Shown piece after piece: positions 586 through 51,954 of a stretch of 64,000 bases of DNA. Source of the DNA: Planctomycetota bacterium (GTDB taxonomy: Bacteria; Planctomycetota; B15-G4); contig JAJDEP010000007.1 of assembly GCA_029259715.1 (NCBI GenBank), positions 124,001 to 188,000 on the forward strand, given 5' to 3'. A model generated the notes under the pieces. The model was not told the origin of the DNA. It saw only the letters and a list, made by a program, of their open reading frames with translations, and did no database searches. The position numbers and the translations under genes were made by a program. How positions within the stretch are numbered: position 1 is the stretch's first letter; each line of letters begins with the position of its first letter.

Positions 586-1836
586 ATGGATCGGACGTTG
601 CAGCAGCCATCGCAGCAGCCGTCGCGTCGGGTGCCCGCCCTACGGGCCGTCGCAGCGCGGACGCTGCTGGCCGGTTGCCTGGCCGTGGCGCTGGTGTCGG
701 CGGCCCGGCCCGTCGACGACGAGGTCGATCCCTACAGCAAGGGCGACCCGGAGCTGCTGGCCGCGGCGGGCTACCTGTCACTGGGCCCGTTCCCCTGGGC
801 CGATGGCGTCGACACCGAGGACGTCGACGCGATCCTGGGCGACGTGACCATGCGCTGGGTCGAGACGCCGCACTTCCGCATCGGCTCATCGCTGCCGGCC
901 TATCGCGTGCCCAACGCCGAGAAGGACGGCGTGCGCGAGGAGCTCAAGGCGCTCAAGCAACTCCTCCCGAAGGTGAACGTGCGCACCAAGCGCCTCGATC
1001 CCTGGCTGCGCCTGCACCTCTACGCGCTGCGCCTCGAGCGGCTTCACGCCGAGCTCTGCGAGCTGCTCGGTGTCGACGATGACGACTTCGTCCCCGCCAC
1101 CGAGGGCGGCAAGTACATGGGGGAGGGGCCGTGCCTGGGCATGCCCGGCAAACCCACGGTGCTGCTGTTCGAGAAGTCCTCGAGCCTCGGCCGCTACCGC
1201 GTCCGCTTCACCGATCAGACCGTCGATGCCGCCGTGCGCCGCTTGTTCTACGACCCGCCGAGTATGACCTTCGCCACGTCCATCGAGACCGGCAAGGGCC
1301 TGTTCGACGAGGACGTGTCGCTGCACTGTCACGTGGTGTTCAACGTCACGCACAACCTGGTCAACTCGTTCAAGTACTTCGCCTACAAGTTGCCGGTCTG
1401 GGTGCCCGAGGGCATTTCCCACTGGTTTCGCAGGCGTGTCGATCCGGTGTGGAACCAGTTCACGGCGGTGAAGGACAACGACGGGCCGGGCAAGGCGGAG
1501 CAGGACTGGGCGGTGCGCGTGCGCGCCCGCGTGGGGCACGAGTACTTCCCCGCCGCCGAAGAGCTGATGAACTGGATGGACTACGACGACCTGAGCGTCG
1601 TCGACCACATGATGATCTGGTCGCGCATCGACTTCCTCATCGACCAGGGGCCCGACCGTTTCGCCCGTTTCATGGACGTCCTCAAGGATCACCCGGGGAC
1701 GGTGGACGGACTCTTCTCGGTGGAGCAGGTCCAGGCGCGGCAGGTGCAGGCCCTGGGCGCGGCCTATCAGCTCGAGCCCGACGTCTTCGACGTCCAATGG
1801 GCCGCGTGGGTCGAGGCGACCTACCCGAAGAAGTGA
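586..1836 (+). CDS. Hypothetical secreted/anchored protein
   Basis: ATG at 586 inside the longer ORF 244..1836 gives a hydrophobic signal-like N-terminus (LAGCLAVALVSAARP). Confidence 0.65.
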   Translation: MDRTLQQPSQQPSRRVPALRAVAARTLLAGCLAVALVSAARPVDDEVDPYSKGDPELLAAAGYLSLGPFPWADGVDTEDVDAILGDVTMRWVETPHFRIGSSLPAYRVPNAEKDGVREELKALKQLLPKVNVRTKRLDPWLRLHLYALRLERLHAELCELLGVDDDDFVPATEGGKYMGEGPCLGMPGKPTVLLFEKSSSLGRYRVRFTDQTVDAAVRRLFYDPPSMTFATSIETGKGLFDEDVSLHCHVVFNVTHNLVNSFKYFAYKLPVWVPEGISHWFRRRVDPVWNQFTAVKDNDGPGKAEQDWAVRVRARVGHEYFPAAEELMNWMDYDDLSVVDHMMIWSRIDFLIDQGPDRFARFMDVLKDHPGTVDGLFSVEQVQARQVQALGAAYQLEPDVFDVQWAAWVEATYPKK

Positions 1837-3325: not shown

Positions 3326-4982
<1,657 letters not shown>

Positions 4983-37945: not shown

Positions 37946-40297
37946 ATGCGCGCGTCCCTCGTCGTCCTCGTGGTGGCCCTCGTCTGCGCGGCCTGCGGCG
38001 GCGCGACGGCGGAGGGCCTGGAACTGGCGCCGGGCGACGACCTCGTGGCGCGGCTGCGACCCGAACACATCGTCGCCGCGTCGCCGGGCAACGTGCCGGC
38101 CGCCTTGCTGGCCGACCGCGAGCAACGGCAGGCCGAGCGGGTGATCTTGCCGGCCGACCTCTGGCGTGACGCGGGTCCCGCCGACCCCGCGGTGAGTCGC
38201 TTCGCCCAGCGCTGGGGCGTCACCGGCGGCATGCGCCGCTGGACCGCGCCGGACGCGCCGCCCCCGCCGGGCGCCGATGACGTGCTGCGCCTGGTCCACG
38301 AGGGCCGCGACCTGCGGCGCTTCCTGATGGGCGGCAGCAAGCCCCGGGCCGCGGGCGTCGAGATCGCCGACGATGAGGAGAAGGGCCTCACCGCCCCCGA
38401 CGAGGACGGACCCAGCACCTGGGTCGACCGCACCGGCAAGGCCATGTTCTGGTGGGAGGGGACGCCGCCGGTGCTGCACGCCGTGGCGCCCGACGCTCCC
38501 GGACCGTTGAACGTGGGCGCCGGGTCGGTGGCCCTCGACGACATGCTGAAGTGGGAGCTGCCGCCGGACGATCCGGCCGCGCGGGTGCGGCGCGTCTCTC
38601 CGGACGGTGAACGGCAGCGGACCCGGGTGGCACTGTTGCTCGCGGCCCCGGGAATCGCCGAGGTGCCCGTGGGCGTGCTGCACGGGGACGGTCTCTCGGT
38701 GCAGGTCTCCGTGCTCGACCACTCCTTCGCCATGGCCAAGACCCGGGTCGTGCGCGAGCCGGCGTTGAGCGACGGCGTGGTCTGCGCCGTGGACGTGGTG
38801 CGGGGAGGCGTCACCGAGCGGCGTTGGAGCGAGCGCGTCAGGCCCGGTGAGGCCCCGGTGGTGGCTGCGGTCGATTTGTCCGACCTGCAGGGGAGCGGCT
38901 TCCTGCTGCGGTTGGTGACGGAGCCCGGCCCGGCGGGGGACAGCGACTGGGACTACGCCGCCTGGAGTCGCGTGGCGGTGACGGGAGCGCCGCGCCGACC
39001 GCCGTCCCGGCCCCACGTGGTGCTGATCGACATCGACACCCTGCGCGCCGACCGCCTGGGGCTGTACGGCCACGACCGCAACACCTCGCCGCGGCTGGAC
39101 GCCTGGGCGGCGCGCGAGGCGGTGGTCTACCGCGATGCCGTGGCCACCTCGAGCTGGACCATTCCGTCGACGGCCTCGATCCTCACCGGACTGGCCGTGC
39201 ACCAGCACCGCATCGCCGAACAGATCCAATCGCTCACGGCGGAGGTCCGGCCCCTCTCGGTGCGCCTGCGCGCGGTGGGCTACGAGACCCGCGCGGTGAG
39301 CGAGCTGGGCATGCTCTCGGTGAACAACGGCTTCGACGTGGGCTTCGACGAGTTCGAGGCCCTGCCCCGGGTGTACGACCGCCCGGCCGTGCCCGACTGG
39401 TCGGGTCTGGTGGACTGGGTCGCGACGCGGGACAGCGAGCGCCCCTTCTTCCTGTTCCTGCAGACCTACATGGTCCACGCGCCGTTCCACGACGGCGGCC
39501 GCTTCCCCGAGCCCGACCCGCAGGCCCTGGCGTCCCTCGACGACGGGTTGATCGGGTACCAGAACGTGATCCTGCCCTTCATCCACGGGCTGCTCCCGTT
39601 GGACGGCGCGCAACGCGCGACGGTGGACCGCGTCTACGACGAGGGCGTCGCCCGCATGGACGACGTGGTGGCCGACTTCCTGGAGGGCCTCGAACAGGCC
39701 CTCGACGGAGAGGACTGCCTGATCATCTTCACCTCCGACCACGGTGAGGAGCTGTTCGAGCACGAGGGCCTGGGCCACGGGCACACGCTGCACAGCGAAC
39801 TGCTCCAGGTGCCGCTCATCGTGGCCTACCCCGGCGACGGACCGACCGGAACCGACGAGCGTGTCGCCTCGATCCTCGACATCGTCCCCACCGTGTTGGC
39901 CGAAGCGGGGCTGCCCATCGAGGACGGCCTGCCGGGCCGGCCCCTGCGCGCGCCGGCGGGGCCGCCGCGGCCGCGGGTGTCCATGCTCGGCAACGAGGTG
40001 GCCGTGGACTTCCAGGGCTTCAAGCTCATGCGGCGGGAGGGGGCCGGGCTCGGTGACGCCGCCGACGTGCCCGACGATCAGGTGCGCACGCTGCTCTTCG
40101 ATCGGGCGCGCGATCGGGCCGAGCGCAACGACCTGTCCGCGGACGTCGAGCGGGTCGACCAGCTGCTCACGGTGCTGGCCGACTACCTGCTGCGCTTCCC
40201 GTCGCAGGGCACGGGGCCCGGCGAGGCCGGCGCCATGGATGATGCGCTGCTCGAGCAGCTCCGCGAGTTGGGGTACGTGAACGGCGGCGACGGCTGA
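37946..40297 (+). CDS. Sulfatase-like hydrolase (alkaline phosphatase superfamily), lipoprotein
   Basis: Lipobox VCAAC; PHVVLIDIDTLRADRLGLYGHDRNTSPRLDAWA; FTSDHGEELFEHEGLGHGHTLHSELLQVPLIV. Confidence 0.9.
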   Translation: MRASLVVLVVALVCAACGGATAEGLELAPGDDLVARLRPEHIVAASPGNVPAALLADREQRQAERVILPADLWRDAGPADPAVSRFAQRWGVTGGMRRWTAPDAPPPPGADDVLRLVHEGRDLRRFLMGGSKPRAAGVEIADDEEKGLTAPDEDGPSTWVDRTGKAMFWWEGTPPVLHAVAPDAPGPLNVGAGSVALDDMLKWELPPDDPAARVRRVSPDGERQRTRVALLLAAPGIAEVPVGVLHGDGLSVQVSVLDHSFAMAKTRVVREPALSDGVVCAVDVVRGGVTERRWSERVRPGEAPVVAAVDLSDLQGSGFLLRLVTEPGPAGDSDWDYAAWSRVAVTGAPRRPPSRPHVVLIDIDTLRADRLGLYGHDRNTSPRLDAWAAREAVVYRDAVATSSWTIPSTASILTGLAVHQHRIAEQIQSLTAEVRPLSVRLRAVGYETRAVSELGMLSVNNGFDVGFDEFEALPRVYDRPAVPDWSGLVDWVATRDSERPFFLFLQTYMVHAPFHDGGRFPEPDPQALASLDDGLIGYQNVILPFIHGLLPLDGAQRATVDRVYDEGVARMDDVVADFLEGLEQALDGEDCLIIFTSDHGEELFEHEGLGHGHTLHSELLQVPLIVAYPGDGPTGTDERVASILDIVPTVLAEAGLPIEDGLPGRPLRAPAGPPRPRVSMLGNEVAVDFQGFKLMRREGAGLGDAADVPDDQVRTLLFDRARDRAERNDLSADVERVDQLLTVLADYLLRFPSQGTGPGEAGAMDDALLEQLRELGYVNGGDG

Positions 40298-41889
40298 TGG
40301 GCAAGCCGCCGTTCGGCGGGACCACGATCATCCGCCCCGGCGCGCCCGAGGTCGCGCCCTTCCTGCGGCGCCACGCGCTGGGCGTCACGGCGGCGGCGCC
40401 GCTGGTGGCCGCCGTCGTCGGGAGCCTGTTCAACATCTGGTACAACCTCGCCCACGTGCAGCCGCTGCTCAGCGACGGGCAGCAGGCGCACCTGCGTGAC
40501 GTCATCACCGTCTACAACGCGGTGGTCTACCCGCTCGGCGTCGGCCTGTGGTTGTGGACCGTGTTCTCCGTCGGCGGTGCCTTCCGCGACGCGTGGCAGG
40601 GGCGCACTCCCGACCCCGCGGCCCTGGCCCGCGCCCGGGTCCGCGCGATCAACCTGCCCTGGCACATCTCCGCGATCATGACCGTGGCCTGGACCCTGTG
40701 CATCCCGGTGTTCTGGGGCGCGCTGGCGTGGGAGGGCGAGGTCCTCGACCCCGAATTCCTGCCGCACCTGTCGATCTCGATCATCCTCGGCGCGCTCATC
40801 ACCGTGACCTACGGCTTCTTCGCCACCGAGTATGCGGCGTGCAAGCTGCTCTTCCCGGTGCTGTTCACCGACGTCCATCCGGCCGGCATCCCCGGCACGA
40901 TCACCATGACCCTGCGGCGGCGCGGGCTCATGTGGGCCATCTCCATCGGCGCGTGTCCCATCGTGGCGCTGCTGCTGGTGGCCCACGACGTCGAGCCGGT
41001 CACGCGCAACTTCCTCTTCGCGGTGGGCGCGCTGGGCATCGCCTTCGGCCTGATGGGGTCGTTGCTCATCAGCCGGCTGGTGGCCGAGCCCGTCGACGTG
41101 CTCAAGCGCGCGGCCCAGACCGTGGCCGGCGGCGACCTCGACGTGGAGATCGACCTGCTGCGCGCGGACGAGTTCGGCCCGCTCATCGACGAGTTCAACC
41201 GCATGGTGGCGGAGATGCGCAACAAGGAGCGGCTGCGACGCACCTTCGGACTCCACGTGGGGGAAGCGGCGGCCGAACAGATCCTGGCCAGCGACCCGGG
41301 ACTCGGCGGGCGCGAGTGCGTGGTGACGGTGATGTTCTGCGACATCCGCGACTTCACCGCGCGGTGCTCGCGGTGCAGCGCCGACGAGGCCGTGTCGATG
41401 CTCAACGAGTTCCTCACGGTGATGGTGGGAATTGTCGAGCGGCGCCACGGCGGCATGGTCAACAAGTTCCTGGGCGACGGGTTCATGGCCGTGTTCGGCG
41501 CGGCCCGCGTGGAGGGTCACGAGGGCGTGGCGGTGACGGCGGCGGGTGACATGCTCGCCAGCATCGGGGCGCTCAACGAGCGGCTCTCGGGGCGGGGTCT
41601 CGAGCCGCTGGCCATCGGCATCGGCATCCACACCGGGCCGGCCATCGTGGGCAACGTCGGCTCCGACGAACGCCTCGAGTACACCGTCATCGGCGACACG
41701 GTGAATCTGGCCAGCCGCGTGGAGGGCCTGACCAAGGCCGTGGGTCGGCCGCTGCTCTTCACCGAGGGCACGCGTCGCGGCCTTTCCGCCGACCTGAGCG
41801 TGGAGAGGCTGGAGGCCCGCCGCGTGAAGGGCCGGGAGGAGCCCTTGGACCTGTTCACCGTTGCGGACTCGGGCGCCCCAGTTCGCTAA
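40297..41889 (+). CDS. Membrane HAMP domain adenylate/guanylate cyclase (class III)
   Basis: HAMP segment; VTVMFCDIRDFTARCS; NKFLGDGFMAVFGA; HTGPAIVGNVGSDERLEYTVIGDTVNLASRVEGLTK. Confidence 0.93.
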   Translation: MGKPPFGGTTIIRPGAPEVAPFLRRHALGVTAAAPLVAAVVGSLFNIWYNLAHVQPLLSDGQQAHLRDVITVYNAVVYPLGVGLWLWTVFSVGGAFRDAWQGRTPDPAALARARVRAINLPWHISAIMTVAWTLCIPVFWGALAWEGEVLDPEFLPHLSISIILGALITVTYGFFATEYAACKLLFPVLFTDVHPAGIPGTITMTLRRRGLMWAISIGACPIVALLLVAHDVEPVTRNFLFAVGALGIAFGLMGSLLISRLVAEPVDVLKRAAQTVAGGDLDVEIDLLRADEFGPLIDEFNRMVAEMRNKERLRRTFGLHVGEAAAEQILASDPGLGGRECVVTVMFCDIRDFTARCSRCSADEAVSMLNEFLTVMVGIVERRHGGMVNKFLGDGFMAVFGAARVEGHEGVAVTAAGDMLASIGALNERLSGRGLEPLAIGIGIHTGPAIVGNVGSDERLEYTVIGDTVNLASRVEGLTKAVGRPLLFTEGTRRGLSADLSVERLEARRVKGREEPLDLFTVADSGAPVR

Positions 41890-41938
41890 AGTCGCTCCCG
41901 GTCGACGCCGAAGGGGGCAAGTGCAATCTCTCTTCGGA

Positions 41939-41974
41939 GCCCGGGGCCCTCCGCATCGAGCCGCCGCCCCGGGC
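41939..41974 (+). promoter_or_regulatory. 9-bp stem-loop in the 5' leader of the beta-helix gene
   Basis: GCCCGGGGC (41939-41947) / GCCCCGGGC (41966-41974), 18-nt loop, upstream of GTG 42001. Confidence 0.5.
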
Positions 41975-42000
41975 GCCGACCGCCAACAGGGAAGGACACC

Positions 42001-43758
42001 GTGACGAATCGCAATCCCGCCCCCGCGCGTCGGGGACTCGCGCTCGCCTTTGCCGGCGCGACCCTCTTCGCCTCCGCCGGCCTGGCGCTCTGCGTCGACT
42101 GGCAAGCCGCTCCCACGGCCGCCGCCCGCGTCTCCCACGCGGGCGCTTCTGATGCTGCCGGCCCCCTCGACCCCTGGTCGACGGGCTCCGCGGACGAGCC
42201 GGCGGGTGCGGCGGTCACGCGCTCGGCCTCCTCGCCCCACGCCTTCGAACTGCCGGAGCCGGTGCGTGCGCCGGTGCGGCGCAGCCCCGTGGCGGCCGCC
42301 TTCGGCGACGACTGGTGGGAGCAGACCGCCGGCGGAACGCTCTACGGCGACGGCGATGCGGTGCCGCCCGGAGCGAGTGTGCCGGCGGGGCTCAACCGCA
42401 GTCTCAAGGTGCCGCGCGGTGTGCTGCAGGTGCCCGATGGCACTTCGGTGGTCCCGCCGACGCAGGCGCTCGGTCCCTACGACCCGACCTGGGGCGACGC
42501 GACGCCGGTGCGCACCCTCGACCATGCCTACGACGGCGGCCTCACCGATGCGCAGAACGGCGCCCTGCTCGACGCCGCGGTGGCGGCCTTGCTGCCGGGT
42601 GACAAGCTCGTGGTCGCCGCCGGCGCGTACGAGCTGACCAGCCCCATGAGCATCCTGCACATCGCCGCCGCCGACCTGCCCATCGTCATCGAGGGCGAGA
42701 GCGGCTCTCCCCCGCACCTCTACCGCAGCGACATCCTCGACGGCGTGGTCGAGATCGGTGGAGAGGGCACGGGCACGCCCATCGCGGCCTACGTCGTGCT
42801 GCGCGGTTTCGAGCTCAGCGGCGGCGACGCGGCGGTCCGTCTGCACAAGGTGGCAGACGTCTGGATCGACGCCAACGAGATGCGCGACACGGGCGGCGGC
42901 GTGGCCGCCACCACCGAACATGCGGGCTTCGTGCACATCACGCGCAACGACATCCACGACACCCAGAGCTGGGGCGAAGGCATCCAGCTCGGCAAGAACT
43001 CGCCCAACCGCATCTTCCACGACTCGGTCGTGGCGCTGAACCACATCCACGACACCCAGGCCGCCCTGCAGGGCGAGGGCATCGACATGAAGTGGCGCAG
43101 CAACGCCAACTGGATCGTCGAGAACGTGATCCACGGCACCAACTTCCCGAGCATCAAGTTCGAGGCCACCGACAACCGGCCGCTGAACGTGGTCGAGCGC
43201 AACGTGTGCTGGGACTCGGGCGACAACGTGATCCAGGCCGAGGGCGGCGAGGCGGTGGTGCGCAACAACGTGCTGGCCTCGCCGGCGGGCAACAAGCTGT
43301 TCGACAGCTCGCACAACTCGGCCACGCTCAAGAAGCTGTATGTGACCCACAACACGATGATCAGCAAGAACGGCTACGGCGCCGGCTTGTGGGCCTGGAA
43401 CGGCCAGCAGGGTCTGGTGTTCGCGAACAACGCCGTCTACATCAACGACTACAGCGCCAACACCTACGCCATCGCCATCGGCACGGAGCAGCTCGGCGGC
43501 ACCATCGCGGGCAACACGATCTTCGGCAAGGCGCGCAACCTGACCTACGGCTGGGTCACCGGCAACGGGCTGACGGACCTCGCGGGGCAGTCGACCTGGG
43601 CCGCCTACGCCTTCGACGGTGACGTCTCCGACCTGTGGCCCGGCGTGGGCAGCGCCCTCGACGCCAGCGCCGATCCCAACCACGTCGACGACGACGACTT
43701 CTACGGCGTGGAGCGGACCATGCCGACCGAGTCCGGCGCCTTCGTGATGCCGGACTGA
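42001..43758 (+). CDS. Secreted right-handed parallel beta-helix repeat protein
   Basis: Signal-like N-terminus; repeated IxxNxI rungs (VLRGFELSGGDAAVRLHKVADVWIDANEMRDTGGGVAATTEHAGFVHITRNDIHDTQ). Confidence 0.88.
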   Translation: MTNRNPAPARRGLALAFAGATLFASAGLALCVDWQAAPTAAARVSHAGASDAAGPLDPWSTGSADEPAGAAVTRSASSPHAFELPEPVRAPVRRSPVAAAFGDDWWEQTAGGTLYGDGDAVPPGASVPAGLNRSLKVPRGVLQVPDGTSVVPPTQALGPYDPTWGDATPVRTLDHAYDGGLTDAQNGALLDAAVAALLPGDKLVVAAGAYELTSPMSILHIAAADLPIVIEGESGSPPHLYRSDILDGVVEIGGEGTGTPIAAYVVLRGFELSGGDAAVRLHKVADVWIDANEMRDTGGGVAATTEHAGFVHITRNDIHDTQSWGEGIQLGKNSPNRIFHDSVVALNHIHDTQAALQGEGIDMKWRSNANWIVENVIHGTNFPSIKFEATDNRPLNVVERNVCWDSGDNVIQAEGGEAVVRNNVLASPAGNKLFDSSHNSATLKKLYVTHNTMISKNGYGAGLWAWNGQQGLVFANNAVYINDYSANTYAIAIGTEQLGGTIAGNTIFGKARNLTYGWVTGNGLTDLAGQSTWAAYAFDGDVSDLWPGVGSALDASADPNHVDDDDFYGVERTMPTESGAFVMPD

Positions 43759-43763
43759 CCGGT

Positions 43764-43809
43764 CCGGCCGGGGGAAGCTGCCCCAGCGCTGCCACTCCCC
43801 AACGGCCGG
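43764..43809. terminator. Hairpin CCGGCCG...CGGCCGG after the beta-helix gene
   Basis: Perfect 7-bp outer stem with adjacent GGGG/CCCC. Confidence 0.45.
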
Positions 43810-43833
43810 CGGCCCGGCTGCGTCTGGGAGCTC

Positions 43834-44295
43834 GTGGGAGATTGCCGCCATCAAGCGACCGGGTTGCTGCGAGCCGCACTGAGAGCCGTGCCGAGTGCCG
43901 TGCTCATCGTTGCGACGCTGCTCGGAAGCCCGGCGGTCTGGTGCTCGCTGGCCCTGACGGACGGGGTCGCCGCGAGCGGATGTGAAGCCTCCGCGCAAGG
44001 CGCCGGGGCCGGATGCGACGCGGGCGTCCCCACCCCTACCTGCCCCACCGAATCCCCCTGTCCCACCGACCCCGGATCTCCGGACGACCCGGGGTCTCCA
44101 AACGACCCGTCTGATCCGGTCGAGGGCGGCGACCCGTGCAGCGCCTGTTGCGTGCCGTGCTCGGCGGCCCTGCTGATCGCCGGCCCCGTGCTGCCGGATC
44201 CGCTCCCGGGCGGCCGCCTGCCCGAACGCCCCGAGGTCCTCGTCGGCCATGCGATCGATGTGCCGTCGCCGCCACCGCAGACGCGGTGCCCGTGA
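43834..44295 (+). CDS. Hypothetical secreted Cys/Pro-rich protein
   Basis: Hydrophobic N-terminus followed by C-rich and DPGSPDDPGSPNDPSDP linker, then CSACCVPC; start uncertain. Confidence 0.5.
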   Translation: MGDCRHQATGLLRAALRAVPSAVLIVATLLGSPAVWCSLALTDGVAASGCEASAQGAGAGCDAGVPTPTCPTESPCPTDPGSPDDPGSPNDPSDPVEGGDPCSACCVPCSAALLIAGPVLPDPLPGGRLPERPEVLVGHAIDVPSPPPQTRCP

Positions 44296-44362
44296 CCGAC
44301 GGCCGCCCGCCGCTGCACCGCGGGCGGATGACGAACGAACTCCTCGAACCAAGGAGGGAGTC

Positions 44363-44491
44363 ATGCTGACTCTCAATGCCTTCGCCGCCTCGTCGGTGGC
44401 CACGATCCTCGTGGCCCTGGCCAGCGCTGTAGAGGTGGCCTGCGACTGCGCCGCGTGTGGCGGCGGTTGCTGCCCCTGCTGCTGCTGCTGA
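44363..44491 (+). CDS. 42-aa putative small membrane peptide with Cys-cluster C-terminus
   Basis: ATG preceded by aaggaggg; MLTLNAFAASSVATILVALASAVEVACDCAACGGGCCPCCCC; followed by a strong hairpin. Confidence 0.65.
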   Translation: MLTLNAFAASSVATILVALASAVEVACDCAACGGGCCPCCCC

Positions 44492-44508
44492 TCGCGGCCT
44501 GAAGTACA

Positions 44509-44542
44509 GGGGCCCGTCACGCTCGCGAGCGTGGCGGGCCCC
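44509..44542 (+). terminator. 34-nt near-perfect palindrome (17 bp, one G.T pair)
   Basis: ggggcccgtcacgctcgcgagcgtggcgggcccc. Confidence 0.75.
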
Positions 44543-44547
44543 ATCGC

Positions 44548-44553
44548 TATGGT
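44548..44553 (+). promoter_or_regulatory. -10-like TATGGT 6 nt before ATG 44560
   Basis: TATGGT-gggggg-ATG. Confidence 0.45.
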
Positions 44554-44559
44554 GGGGGG

Positions 44560-45510
44560 ATGGCCTGCCACGATTCACGTCCGGACGCGGCGACAGGCTC
44601 TTGCCCGGCCGTCCTGGCCGGCGCCCTGCTGCCACTCCTCCTGCTCTTGTCGGTGCCCGGATGCGGGTTGATGAGCTGGGCCCTCGATCCGGCTGTGACC
44701 GTCGGTGACGCGCTCGTGCCGGGGGCCAGCCTGCACTACGAGCTCGCGGGCGAACCCGCGGGGTCGAGCAGCGCCGTCGTGCTGTTGCACGGGGGCGAGA
44801 CCGACCGGCGCCTGTGGGACGACCAGTTCCTGCCCTTCGCGCAACGCCATCGGGTGCTGCGCTTCGACGCCCGGGGCCGCGGCCGCTCGTCGGGGGTGTC
44901 GACGCCCTACCGCGCCCACGACGACCTGACCGCCCTGCTCGACGCCCTCGGGCTGGACCGGGTCCACCTCGTGGGCCTTTCGCTGGGCTCGCGGGTGGCG
45001 GTGGACTTCGCCCTGGCCCACCCCGAGCGGGTCGCCTCGCTGGTGCTGGTCTCCCCCTCGATCAGCGGATGGAACTGGAACCCCGCCGAGCTGGGTTGGA
45101 TGGTGCCGCTGTTCCAGGCGGCGTTGGAGGGGCGTCCCGAGCGGGCCACGGAGCTGTGGTTGGGCAGCGCCTACCTGGCGCCGGCGATGGCCGACGCTGA
45201 CGTGGCCGAGCGCTTGCGCAAGATCGCCTTGGACAACGCGCACATCTGGAGCACGACGGACCGGGAGGTGGAGCCGTGGCCGTCGGCCCGCCGGCGCCTC
45301 GACGAACTTTCGGGCCCGCTGCTGATCATCGTGGGCGAGCACGATGTGCCCGACACGCGACGGATCGCCGAGGCCTTGCAGGCCGAGGCAGGCGACGTGC
45401 GCCGGACCGACTGGCCGGGGGTGGGTCACCTCCCCAACATGGAGCGCCCCGACGCCTTCAACGACCTCGTCCTGCAATTCCTGGCGAAAGTGGACGCCGC
45501 CGTTGGGTAA
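44560..45510 (+). CDS. Alpha/beta hydrolase, lipoprotein-like
   Basis: SVPGCG lipobox; VVLLHGGETDRRLWDDQF; VHLVGLSLGSRVAVDFALAHPERVASLVLVSP. Confidence 0.9.
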   Translation: MACHDSRPDAATGSCPAVLAGALLPLLLLLSVPGCGLMSWALDPAVTVGDALVPGASLHYELAGEPAGSSSAVVLLHGGETDRRLWDDQFLPFAQRHRVLRFDARGRGRSSGVSTPYRAHDDLTALLDALGLDRVHLVGLSLGSRVAVDFALAHPERVASLVLVSPSISGWNWNPAELGWMVPLFQAALEGRPERATELWLGSAYLAPAMADADVAERLRKIALDNAHIWSTTDREVEPWPSARRRLDELSGPLLIIVGEHDVPDTRRIAEALQAEAGDVRRTDWPGVGHLPNMERPDAFNDLVLQFLAKVDAAVG

Positions 45511-50487: not shown

Positions 50488-51954
50488 ATGTCCGCGCCCC
50501 CCCAACCACCCGCCACGGCGACCGAAGACGGCCCCTCCGAGCCCAAGGTGGCCGGTCGCGCGGTGTGCCTGGTGTCCCTGGGCTGCAGCAAGAACCTCGT
50601 CGACAGCGAGGTCATGGCGGGTCACCTGGGCCGCGCGGGGCTCGAGCTGGTGGCCGATCCCGCCGAGTCGGACCTGGTCATCGTGAACACCTGCGGCTTC
50701 ATCGACGCCGCTCGCGAGGAGTCCATCGACACGATCCTCGAGTATGTCGAGATGAAGGAGCGCGGCGAGCTGGCGGGCGTGGTGGTGACGGGCTGTCTCG
50801 TGCAGTTGCATGCCGACGCCCTGTCGGCCGAGCTGCCCGAGGTCGACGCCTTCCTGCCGCTGTCCGATTATTCGGGCGTGCCGTCCATCGTGAACGCGGT
50901 GCTCGGCGGGACGCCCAGCGAGGTCTGCCCCGCGGGCGAGGCCCCGGGCGGCGCGCCCAAGGCGGCGGACAACGACCTCGGGCGGGCGTTGCTGACCCCG
51001 GCCCACACGGCCTACCTGCGCCTCGGCGAAGGCTGCGACCACATCTGCGCGTTCTGCGCCATCCCGCACATCCGCGGCAAGCTCAAGAGCAAGCCCATGG
51101 AGGTGCTGCTGGAGGAGGCCGGGGCCCTGGCGACCCTGGGCGCGCGGGAGCTGACCCTCATCGCCGAGGACACGACGGACTACGGCAAGGACCTCAAGGC
51201 GGGTTACGGCCTGGCCGACCTGCTCACCGGCCTCGGCGACGTCGACGGCCTGGAGTGGGTGCGGGTGATGTACGCCCACCCGGCGACCATGGACCAGCGC
51301 CTGATCGAGACCATGGCCCGGGTCGACAAGGTCGTGCCCTACCTCGACATGCCGGTGCAACACGGCGACGCCGACGTGCTGCGCGCCATGCGCCGGGGCA
51401 CCAGCCCCGATCGCATCCGCAAGGTGGTGGGCTGGCTGCGCGCGTCGATCCCCGACCTGGTCCTGCGCACGACGATCCTGGTGGGCTTCCCGGGCGAGAC
51501 GGAGCAGGCCTACGCCCGCCTGCTCGAGCTGCTCGACGAGCTGGCCTTCGACCGCCTGGGCTGCTTCGTCTACTCGGCCGAGCCGGGCACCGAGGCGGAC
51601 GGCCTGCCCGGCGAGGTGTCGCGGGAGGTGGCCGAGGAGCGTCGCGCTGAGGTGATGCGGCGTCAGCGGCAGCGCGTCACGGCGGCCCATCAACGGCGGG
51701 TGGGCTCCATCGAACGGGTGCTCGTGGACGCCGTGGAGGCGCTGGACGACCGCCCGGACGCCGACAGCGGTCTGCGGGCCATCGGCCGCACCCGCTTCGA
51801 CGCGCCCGAGGTCGACGGCCGGGTCCTGGTGGAGTTGCCCAGCCCGAACAGCGCCGCGGCCCGCGCCCTCGGCGACATCGGCCCCGGCGACTTCCTGTCG
51901 GTGCGCATGACAGGGGTGAAGGGCTACGACCTCACCGGTACCCTCGCTCCATGA
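50488..51954 (+). CDS. rimO: Ribosomal protein S12 methylthiotransferase
   Basis: VSLGCSKNLVDSEVMAG; GCDHICAFCAIPHIRGK; C-terminal TRAM-like region. Confidence 0.97.
   Translation: MSAPPQPPATATEDGPSEPKVAGRAVCLVSLGCSKNLVDSEVMAGHLGRAGLELVADPAESDLVIVNTCGFIDAAREESIDTILEYVEMKERGELAGVVVTGCLVQLHADALSAELPEVDAFLPLSDYSGVPSIVNAVLGGTPSEVCPAGEAPGGAPKAADNDLGRALLTPAHTAYLRLGEGCDHICAFCAIPHIRGKLKSKPMEVLLEEAGALATLGARELTLIAEDTTDYGKDLKAGYGLADLLTGLGDVDGLEWVRVMYAHPATMDQRLIETMARVDKVVPYLDMPVQHGDADVLRAMRRGTSPDRIRKVVGWLRASIPDLVLRTTILVGFPGETEQAYARLLELLDELAFDRLGCFVYSAEPGTEADGLPGEVSREVAEERRAEVMRRQRQRVTAAHQRRVGSIERVLVDAVEALDDRPDADSGLRAIGRTRFDAPEVDGRVLVELPSPNSAAARALGDIGPGDFLSVRMTGVKGYDLTGTLAP

Follow-up and report, generated by a model that had tools for sequence, protein, structure and literature searches.

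A 64,000-nucleotide stretch of Planctomycetota DNA (the window, here meaning the whole stretch that was analysed) carries on its forward strand a small gene, 44363..44491, which is very probably genuine and whose 42-aa product, MLTLNAFAASSVATILVALASAVEVACDCAACGGGCCPCCCC, contains nine cysteine residues. Taken together with the sequence around it, the gene is read here, at a probability of about one half, as part of a metal-response operon of two cistrons, a leader of the CutF/CruR type followed by the gene itself, which would encode an exported metallothionein-like micro-peptide. The metal-sensing-leader reading fits best because the layout of the window is that of the CutF/CruR leader anatomy. 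If it is true, some PVC bacteria buffer extracytoplasmic metal with a peptide which is small enough to escape gene callers and which is controlled by translation of a leader, and the leader-plus-spacer signature becomes a route to more such easily overlooked small genes.

The nine-cysteine peptide gene

The encoded peptide consists of a hydrophobic export or anchor segment (residues 7-26, 44381..44440 on the forward strand, mean hydropathy 2.19 over 15 residues) and the tail CDCAACGGGCCPCCCC (residues 27-42, 44441..44488, same strand), a candidate metal-thiolate cluster in which all nine cysteines fall within the final 16 residues of the peptide and form CxC, CxxC and CC motifs. By inspection a likely signal peptidase I site follows the residues ASA, and the mature tail would have about 20 residues; VEVACDCAACGGGCCPCCCC and KEACKCTDCGGQCCPCDCAAGCC are the predicted mature peptides. 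The peptide is acidic, its number of cysteines is odd and it has no lysine or arginine, an absence which in the n-region is unusual for a Sec signal. An earlier sequence-only reading of this DNA had given the open reading frame, the hydrophobic segment and the nine terminal cysteines exactly as we find them. The peptide matched neither Pfam nor the known metallothionein families, no credible relative was found among solved structures, and a comparison for phage or plasmid origin gave no match.

The Shine-Dalgarno (SD) sequence AAGGAGGG (44351-44358, forward strand) lies 4 nt 5' of the ATG. Statistics for codons, SD sequences, stems and ORFs were drawn from a background of 464 kb, made up of the window and 400 kb of its own genome, an assembly of 20 contigs totalling 4.2 Mb at 70% GC. 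The SD had been called strong and this was confirmed, since a match of at least 7 nt at such spacing was found before approximately 0.1% of 10,230 ATGs in this background and before one of the 189 long genes taken from this genome. The synonymous codon score of the peptide ORF was +0.23, while real genes scored +0.22 and wrong frames -0.42, and 2.4% of wrong-frame stretches reached the score of the peptide ORF. The gene is probably real because it combines an SD seen at 0.1% of ATGs with the codon choice of real genes.

By itself the cysteine tail does not argue for a gene, because chance Cys-rich tails do arise in this 70% GC genome from CTG/GCT-rich DNA read in a different frame. Besides the peptide gene one ORF with 8 cysteines in its last 16 residues was present in the 464 kb, the chance ORF SPSCCCSLPRAACCCSRCRCCACCWASP (L075, 9823-9910, forward strand), which serves as a negative control for searches based on such tails in GC-rich genomes. 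An antisense frame of 1462 codons (window 40183-44571, reverse strand) is open over several forward-strand genes and is apparently a by-product of the same 70% GC content.

The gene is followed by a hairpin with a 15-bp stem and a 4-nt loop (44509-44542, forward strand), a probable terminator which begins 17 nt past the stop codon, as had been stated; the stem had been given as 17 bp and is 2 bp shorter. The stretch holding it (44489-44560) has a folding energy of -43 kcal/mol (z -3.6), the hairpin is one of 21 stems of at least 13 bp, G-U pairs allowed, in the 464 kb, and no U-tract was found at it. It separates the peptide gene from the gene starting at 44560 (44560-45510, forward strand), which encodes an alpha/beta hydrolase whose N-terminus (LSVPGC) is of the lipoprotein type; no peptide was found near relatives of this hydrolase in the same phylum. 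Selenocysteine read-through of a TGA, with the hairpin acting as a SECIS element, was considered and rejected because the Verrucomicrobial peptides stop with TAA or TGA directly after Cys-Cys.

A peptide family in Verrucomicrobiota

No homologue of the 42-aa peptide was found in 391 other Planctomycetota genomes, five of the same family among them, in a sample that held no second genome of its own genus. A single-sequence search of 58 relatives returned matches at E values of 0.06-0.9 which on full reading were noise, as were the matches at 0.003-0.05 from an own-phylum profile search of 392 genomes, one of which was a longer thioredoxin-like protein. A search centred on L066, a Phycisphaerae MAG, hit identical places at identical E values to those of the own-phylum search, which puts the window in the phylum that includes Phycisphaerae, Planctomycetota. 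Another Cys-rich C-terminal tail does occur in the phylum, on a protein ending in NPCNPCGGKK repeats (L017, near 1501-1599, reverse strand).

The degenerate DNA pattern C.C..CGG.CCPC was scanned across 84,980 species and gave 16 loci, six of which, all from Verrucomicrobiota MAGs (two uncultured Verrucomicrobia, the other four under the title Chthoniobacter or Chthoniobacterales), code for 43-aa peptides that have a signal peptide and carry the motif at their extreme C-terminus. The Verrucomicrobial order yielded a seventh in a profile search, and the Chthoniobacterales family thus comprises L057, L058, L063, L067, L070, L122 and L126. The remaining ten pattern loci (Rugamonas, Chromobacterium, Cryobacterium, Elioraea, Butyrivibrio and others) lacked the shared architecture and were set aside, and the candidate G881/L127 (E 4e-4) proved to be a different small exported peptide. 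Within the Verrucomicrobial order the family was present in 7 of 197 genomes, and in a 388-genome sample of Verrucomicrobiota it was present in the centre genome only. The literature search for metallothionein together with Verrucomicrobia found nothing relevant.

The Verrucomicrobial peptides read CxCTDCGGxCCPCxCxxGCC up to the stop, with nine cysteines, as in MKKFLFAILAVLALSFTVTAKEACKCTDCGGQCCPCDCAAGCC-stop. In nearly all of the Verrucomicrobial pairs, including the more distant ones, dN was lower than dS (0.19 vs 0.74 for L070 and L126). By inspection the n-region of these peptides is of the classical MKK kind and their signal peptidase I site is of the ATA type, and the membrane peptide proposed in the sequence-only reading is now less likely than an exported one; we consider that the window peptide is probably exported.

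A profile built from the Verrucomicrobial peptides alone placed the window ORF at the top of 8209 ORFs (E 0.007, the next being 0.11) and hhalign aligned the window peptide with the family at an E value of 3.5e-10 over 30 columns, but the tail match, the profile ranking and the hhalign result are partly circular because the search pattern fixed nine of the 16 tail residues. The window peptide has the features of the family, namely C.C..CGG.CCPC at the C-terminus (partly fixed by the search), nine cysteines in all, a hydrophobic export segment, a length of 42-43 aa and an ATG with an SD. Of what is shared, the pattern did not force the hydrophobic N-terminus, the length (42 vs 43 aa), the count of nine cysteines, the cysteine as last residue, the hairpin 3' of the gene, or the small Cys/Pro-rich exported protein encoded upstream and its spacing. 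The Chthoniobacterales members differ in their MKK-type n-region, in a tail which ends in CxxxGCC or similar where the window has CCCC, in a leader ending in PPVPPPRA and, in several loci, in a CitMHS_2-type transporter gene upstream. On balance it is likely that the window peptide and the Verrucomicrobial peptides belong to the same family. Because the same two-gene layout occurs in another phylum, the frame probably belongs to a real gene and is not due to chance. The idea that a separate small gene with a putative thiol- or metal-binding tail had been overlooked is supported, and the Verrucomicrobial architecture and context strengthen it; conservation of the reading frame in relatives, whose absence would by the sequence-only reading refute the gene, was found only at a distance in Verrucomicrobiota, whereas the sampled genomes of the same family do not have the gene.

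The upstream ORF and the spacer

Immediately upstream of the peptide gene we found a leader-like ORF and, between the two cistrons, a stem-loop, neither of which the sequence-only reading had pointed out. The ORF, a putative metal-sensing leader cistron (43834..44295, forward strand), encodes 153 aa from a GTG, with alternative starts possible at TTG 43862 and GTG 43888. It has a Sec-like hydrophobic N-terminus (mean hydropathy 2.0) and a Pro/Cys-rich middle in which the residues CSACCVPC (44137..44160, forward strand) form two CxxC and two CxxxC, a candidate metal-sensing motif. The ORF ends VPSPPPQTRCP-stop, and the codons for PSPPPQTRCP (44263..44292, forward strand) form a candidate ribosome-arrest motif which parallels PPVPPPRA of the Verrucomicrobial leaders and RAPP of CruR, the PPP lying 36 residues past the last cysteine of CSACCVPC. 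When CutF-like rules (a hydrophobic N-terminus, CxxC or CxxxC, and PP within the final 12 residues) were applied to the 3338 ORFs of at least 70 codons in the 464 kb, two ORFs satisfied them, this one and an apparent chance ORF. In terms of the rule set of PMC9973294, it is shorter than 170 aa, has no Pfam domain and contains both CxxxC and a PP motif. It had no match in Pfam or NCBIfam, and DUF2946 (PF11162) gave no match in the window leader, in the Verrucomicrobial leaders or in the whole genome. The codon signal of the leader ORF is weak, though frame 0 is the best of the six, and no strong SD was found for it.

The spacer from the leader stop to the peptide gene is 67 nt and includes an 8-bp stem-loop, CCGCCCGC...GCGGGCGG (44303..44327, forward strand). 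We have to note that the structure of the spacer is no better than that of shuffled sequence (z -1.4) and that stem-loops are common at 70% GC. The ribosome-binding site of the peptide gene (44340..44373, forward strand) is predicted to be sequestered, with CTCCT (44340-44344) on its 5' side and the early codons, to 44373, on its 3' side; the predicted pairing of the SD is about 0.8, a suggestive value, and 13% of 30 SD-bearing genes are equally paired.

In all seven Verrucomicrobial loci a gene for an exported Cys protein of 102-117 aa lies directly upstream, and all seven of these leaders end exactly in PPVPPPRA-stop while their bodies share just 37-60% identity with the sequence in the alignment's first row. 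CxxxC is present in six, the exception being L122, which has CC..CC. The published description of CutF-like proteins (short, with a signal, CxxxC, PP near the C-terminus and a spacer of less than 100 nt; PMC9973294) fits six of the seven and, with a Sec-like hydrophobic N-terminus as its putative signal, the window ORF. The Verrucomicrobial spacer extends 69-84 nt past the leader stop and holds a stem-loop in which, at several loci, the two arms vary in concert (CTTCCGCC/GGCGGAAG, CTTCCGTCC/GGACGGAAG, CCTCCGTCC/GGACGGAGG), and the peptide is followed by a GC-rich hairpin that in most cases has a T-run. The window shows the same order and spacing, with leader ORF, stem-loop spacer, peptide and hairpin. 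The window leader could not be aligned with the Verrucomicrobial leaders (hhalign probability 0.2) and a profile search of its own DNA missed it; because the leaders are not alignable, their relation is a matter of features and position, not of sequence.

Further genes were observed around the Verrucomicrobial pair. A transporter gene stands just upstream of the leader-like gene in L057, L122 and L126; the one tested, in L057, is CitMHS_2 (PF16980) and lies approximately 9 nt from the leader-like gene, which suggests a three-gene unit of transporter, leader and peptide in Verrucomicrobia. In L058, L067, L070 and L126 a convergent gene lies beyond the terminator, that of L070 being DUF3108, with similar-looking DNA in the other three. 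In L070 an ORF ending GGHCCGGGCGCG-stop (3797-4330, forward strand) lies beside the pair on the strand opposite to the leader-like gene.

The metal-response reading and known systems

In the proposed operon the Cys motif of the leader would sample extracytoplasmic metal, most likely copper, during synthesis and export, while its C-terminal proline motif would slow or stall the ribosome. The state of the ribosome on the leader would then set the opening of the stem-loop and of the sequestered ribosome-binding site, and the second cistron would yield the 42-aa peptide, exported by way of its hydrophobic N-terminus. Outside the cytoplasm the nine thiolates of the mature tail would wrap a small metal cluster, which would make the peptide a minimal exported metallothionein. 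The beta domain of mammalian metallothionein has nine cysteines and three divalent ions, and an extracytoplasmic metallothionein needs its thiols kept reduced or metallated. Metal binding by the peptide is reasonably likely judging from its tail, and by analogy the balance tips slightly towards leader-type control; copper as the metal, also by analogy, is a tentative choice. We put forward with similar reserve that a nascent-chain metal-sensor leader having an exported nine-Cys micro-metallothionein as its sole output is common to Planctomycetota and Verrucomicrobiota. No metal genes were present among the Pfam-scanned neighbours of the peptide gene in the window, and the roles of redox buffer or Fe-S ligand suggested earlier gained no specific support.

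The two ORFs might instead form an exported Cys-rich pair that binds metal or is redox-active, in which case no regulation by a leader would be involved and the proline tail and stem-loop would be incidental. Both indeed look exported and Cys-rich, the frequency of stem-loops at this GC content suits such a pair, and in the Verrucomicrobial loci examined the leader-like gene closely trails a transporter and does not clearly open an operon. A constant PPVPPPRA-stop on bodies of such divergence is, however, what is expected of an arrest motif and not of a binding protein, and an unregulated pair appears unlikely. Convergence, in which unrelated window and Verrucomicrobial peptides were matched by pattern selection and the window gene is still real, is favoured by the nine pattern-fixed tail residues, by leaders that do not align and by the lack of intermediates among 392 genomes of its own phylum and 388 of Verrucomicrobiota; set against this, the nine cysteines, the length, the C-terminal position, the upstream leader-like gene and the spacing were not forced, and we find convergence doubtful.

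That the cysteine run is merely CTG-rich DNA read out of frame, with no protein made, would accord with the tail in frame +2, LRLRRVWRRLLPLLLLIAA-stop, which has typical GC-rich codon positions, with the existence of another chance ORF having 8 cysteines in 16 and with the lack of conservation within the same family. When frame +2 (LLPLLLLIAA) was itself tried as the true gene it had no convincing start and stopped at once, and the SD, the codon choice, the hydrophobic N-terminus, the 3' hairpin and the Verrucomicrobial family also argue against a chance ORF, which we judge improbable. A RiPP precursor or a disulfide-rich antimicrobial or toxin peptide would likewise be small, exported and Cys-rich, but no modification enzyme was found among the Pfam-scanned neighbours, the sole radical-SAM gene (50488-51951) being UPF0004/TRAM of the tRNA/S12 methylthiotransferase type, and an acidic peptide without Lys or Arg, with an odd number of cysteines and no family match, makes this highly improbable.

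For the metal-response operon that we favour, the closest anatomy is that of CutF, encoded in the cutFOG operon of Rhodobacter capsulatus. CutF is short and exported, contains CxxxC and is rich in proline at its C-terminus; copper on nascent CutF delays its export and the ribosome unfolds an SD-hiding stem-loop, so that the next gene is translated (PMC9973294). The window leader is likewise a short, apparently exported ORF with CxxxC and a proline-rich C-terminus, followed by a spacer of less than 100 nt with a stem-loop and a downstream SD predicted to be sequestered, but it has no DUF2946 match and no metal genes nearby. CutF-like genes mostly lie 5' of metal-homeostasis genes with spacers of less than 100 nt, and those leaders that have Cys motifs mostly lie 5' of copper-homeostasis genes. 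The gene downstream of CutF encodes a multicopper oxidase, while that of the window encodes a 42-aa Cys peptide whose control is suggested by anatomy. CruR, the copper-responsive uORF of Bordetella pertussis, resembles the window leader in its CxxC, its C-terminal proline motif and its place at the head of a small operon, and the Cys-to-Pro spacing is similar (36-40 residues in the window, 45 in CruR; PMC9426467). The window lacks RAPP and a Pfam DUF2946 match and its spacer is short, and CruR controls a TonB-dependent transporter through Rho (PMC9426467). So far, leaders of the CutF type have been described upstream of pumps, oxidases, transporters or chaperones, and the peptide is best read as an effector type outside those given for CutF/CruR-type leaders in the literature consulted.

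The bacterial metallothioneins SmtA and MymT (PMC7558416) resemble the window peptide in being tiny and Cys-rich with CxC, CxxC and CC. The review cited counts metallothioneins among the cytosolic copper binders, whereas the window peptide looks exported and has no Pfam match. Copper storage proteins of the Csp1 type are exported, contain many cysteines and are thought to hold extracytoplasmic copper; compared with the window peptide, Csp1 is a far larger, Tat-exported four-helix bundle (PMC7558416).
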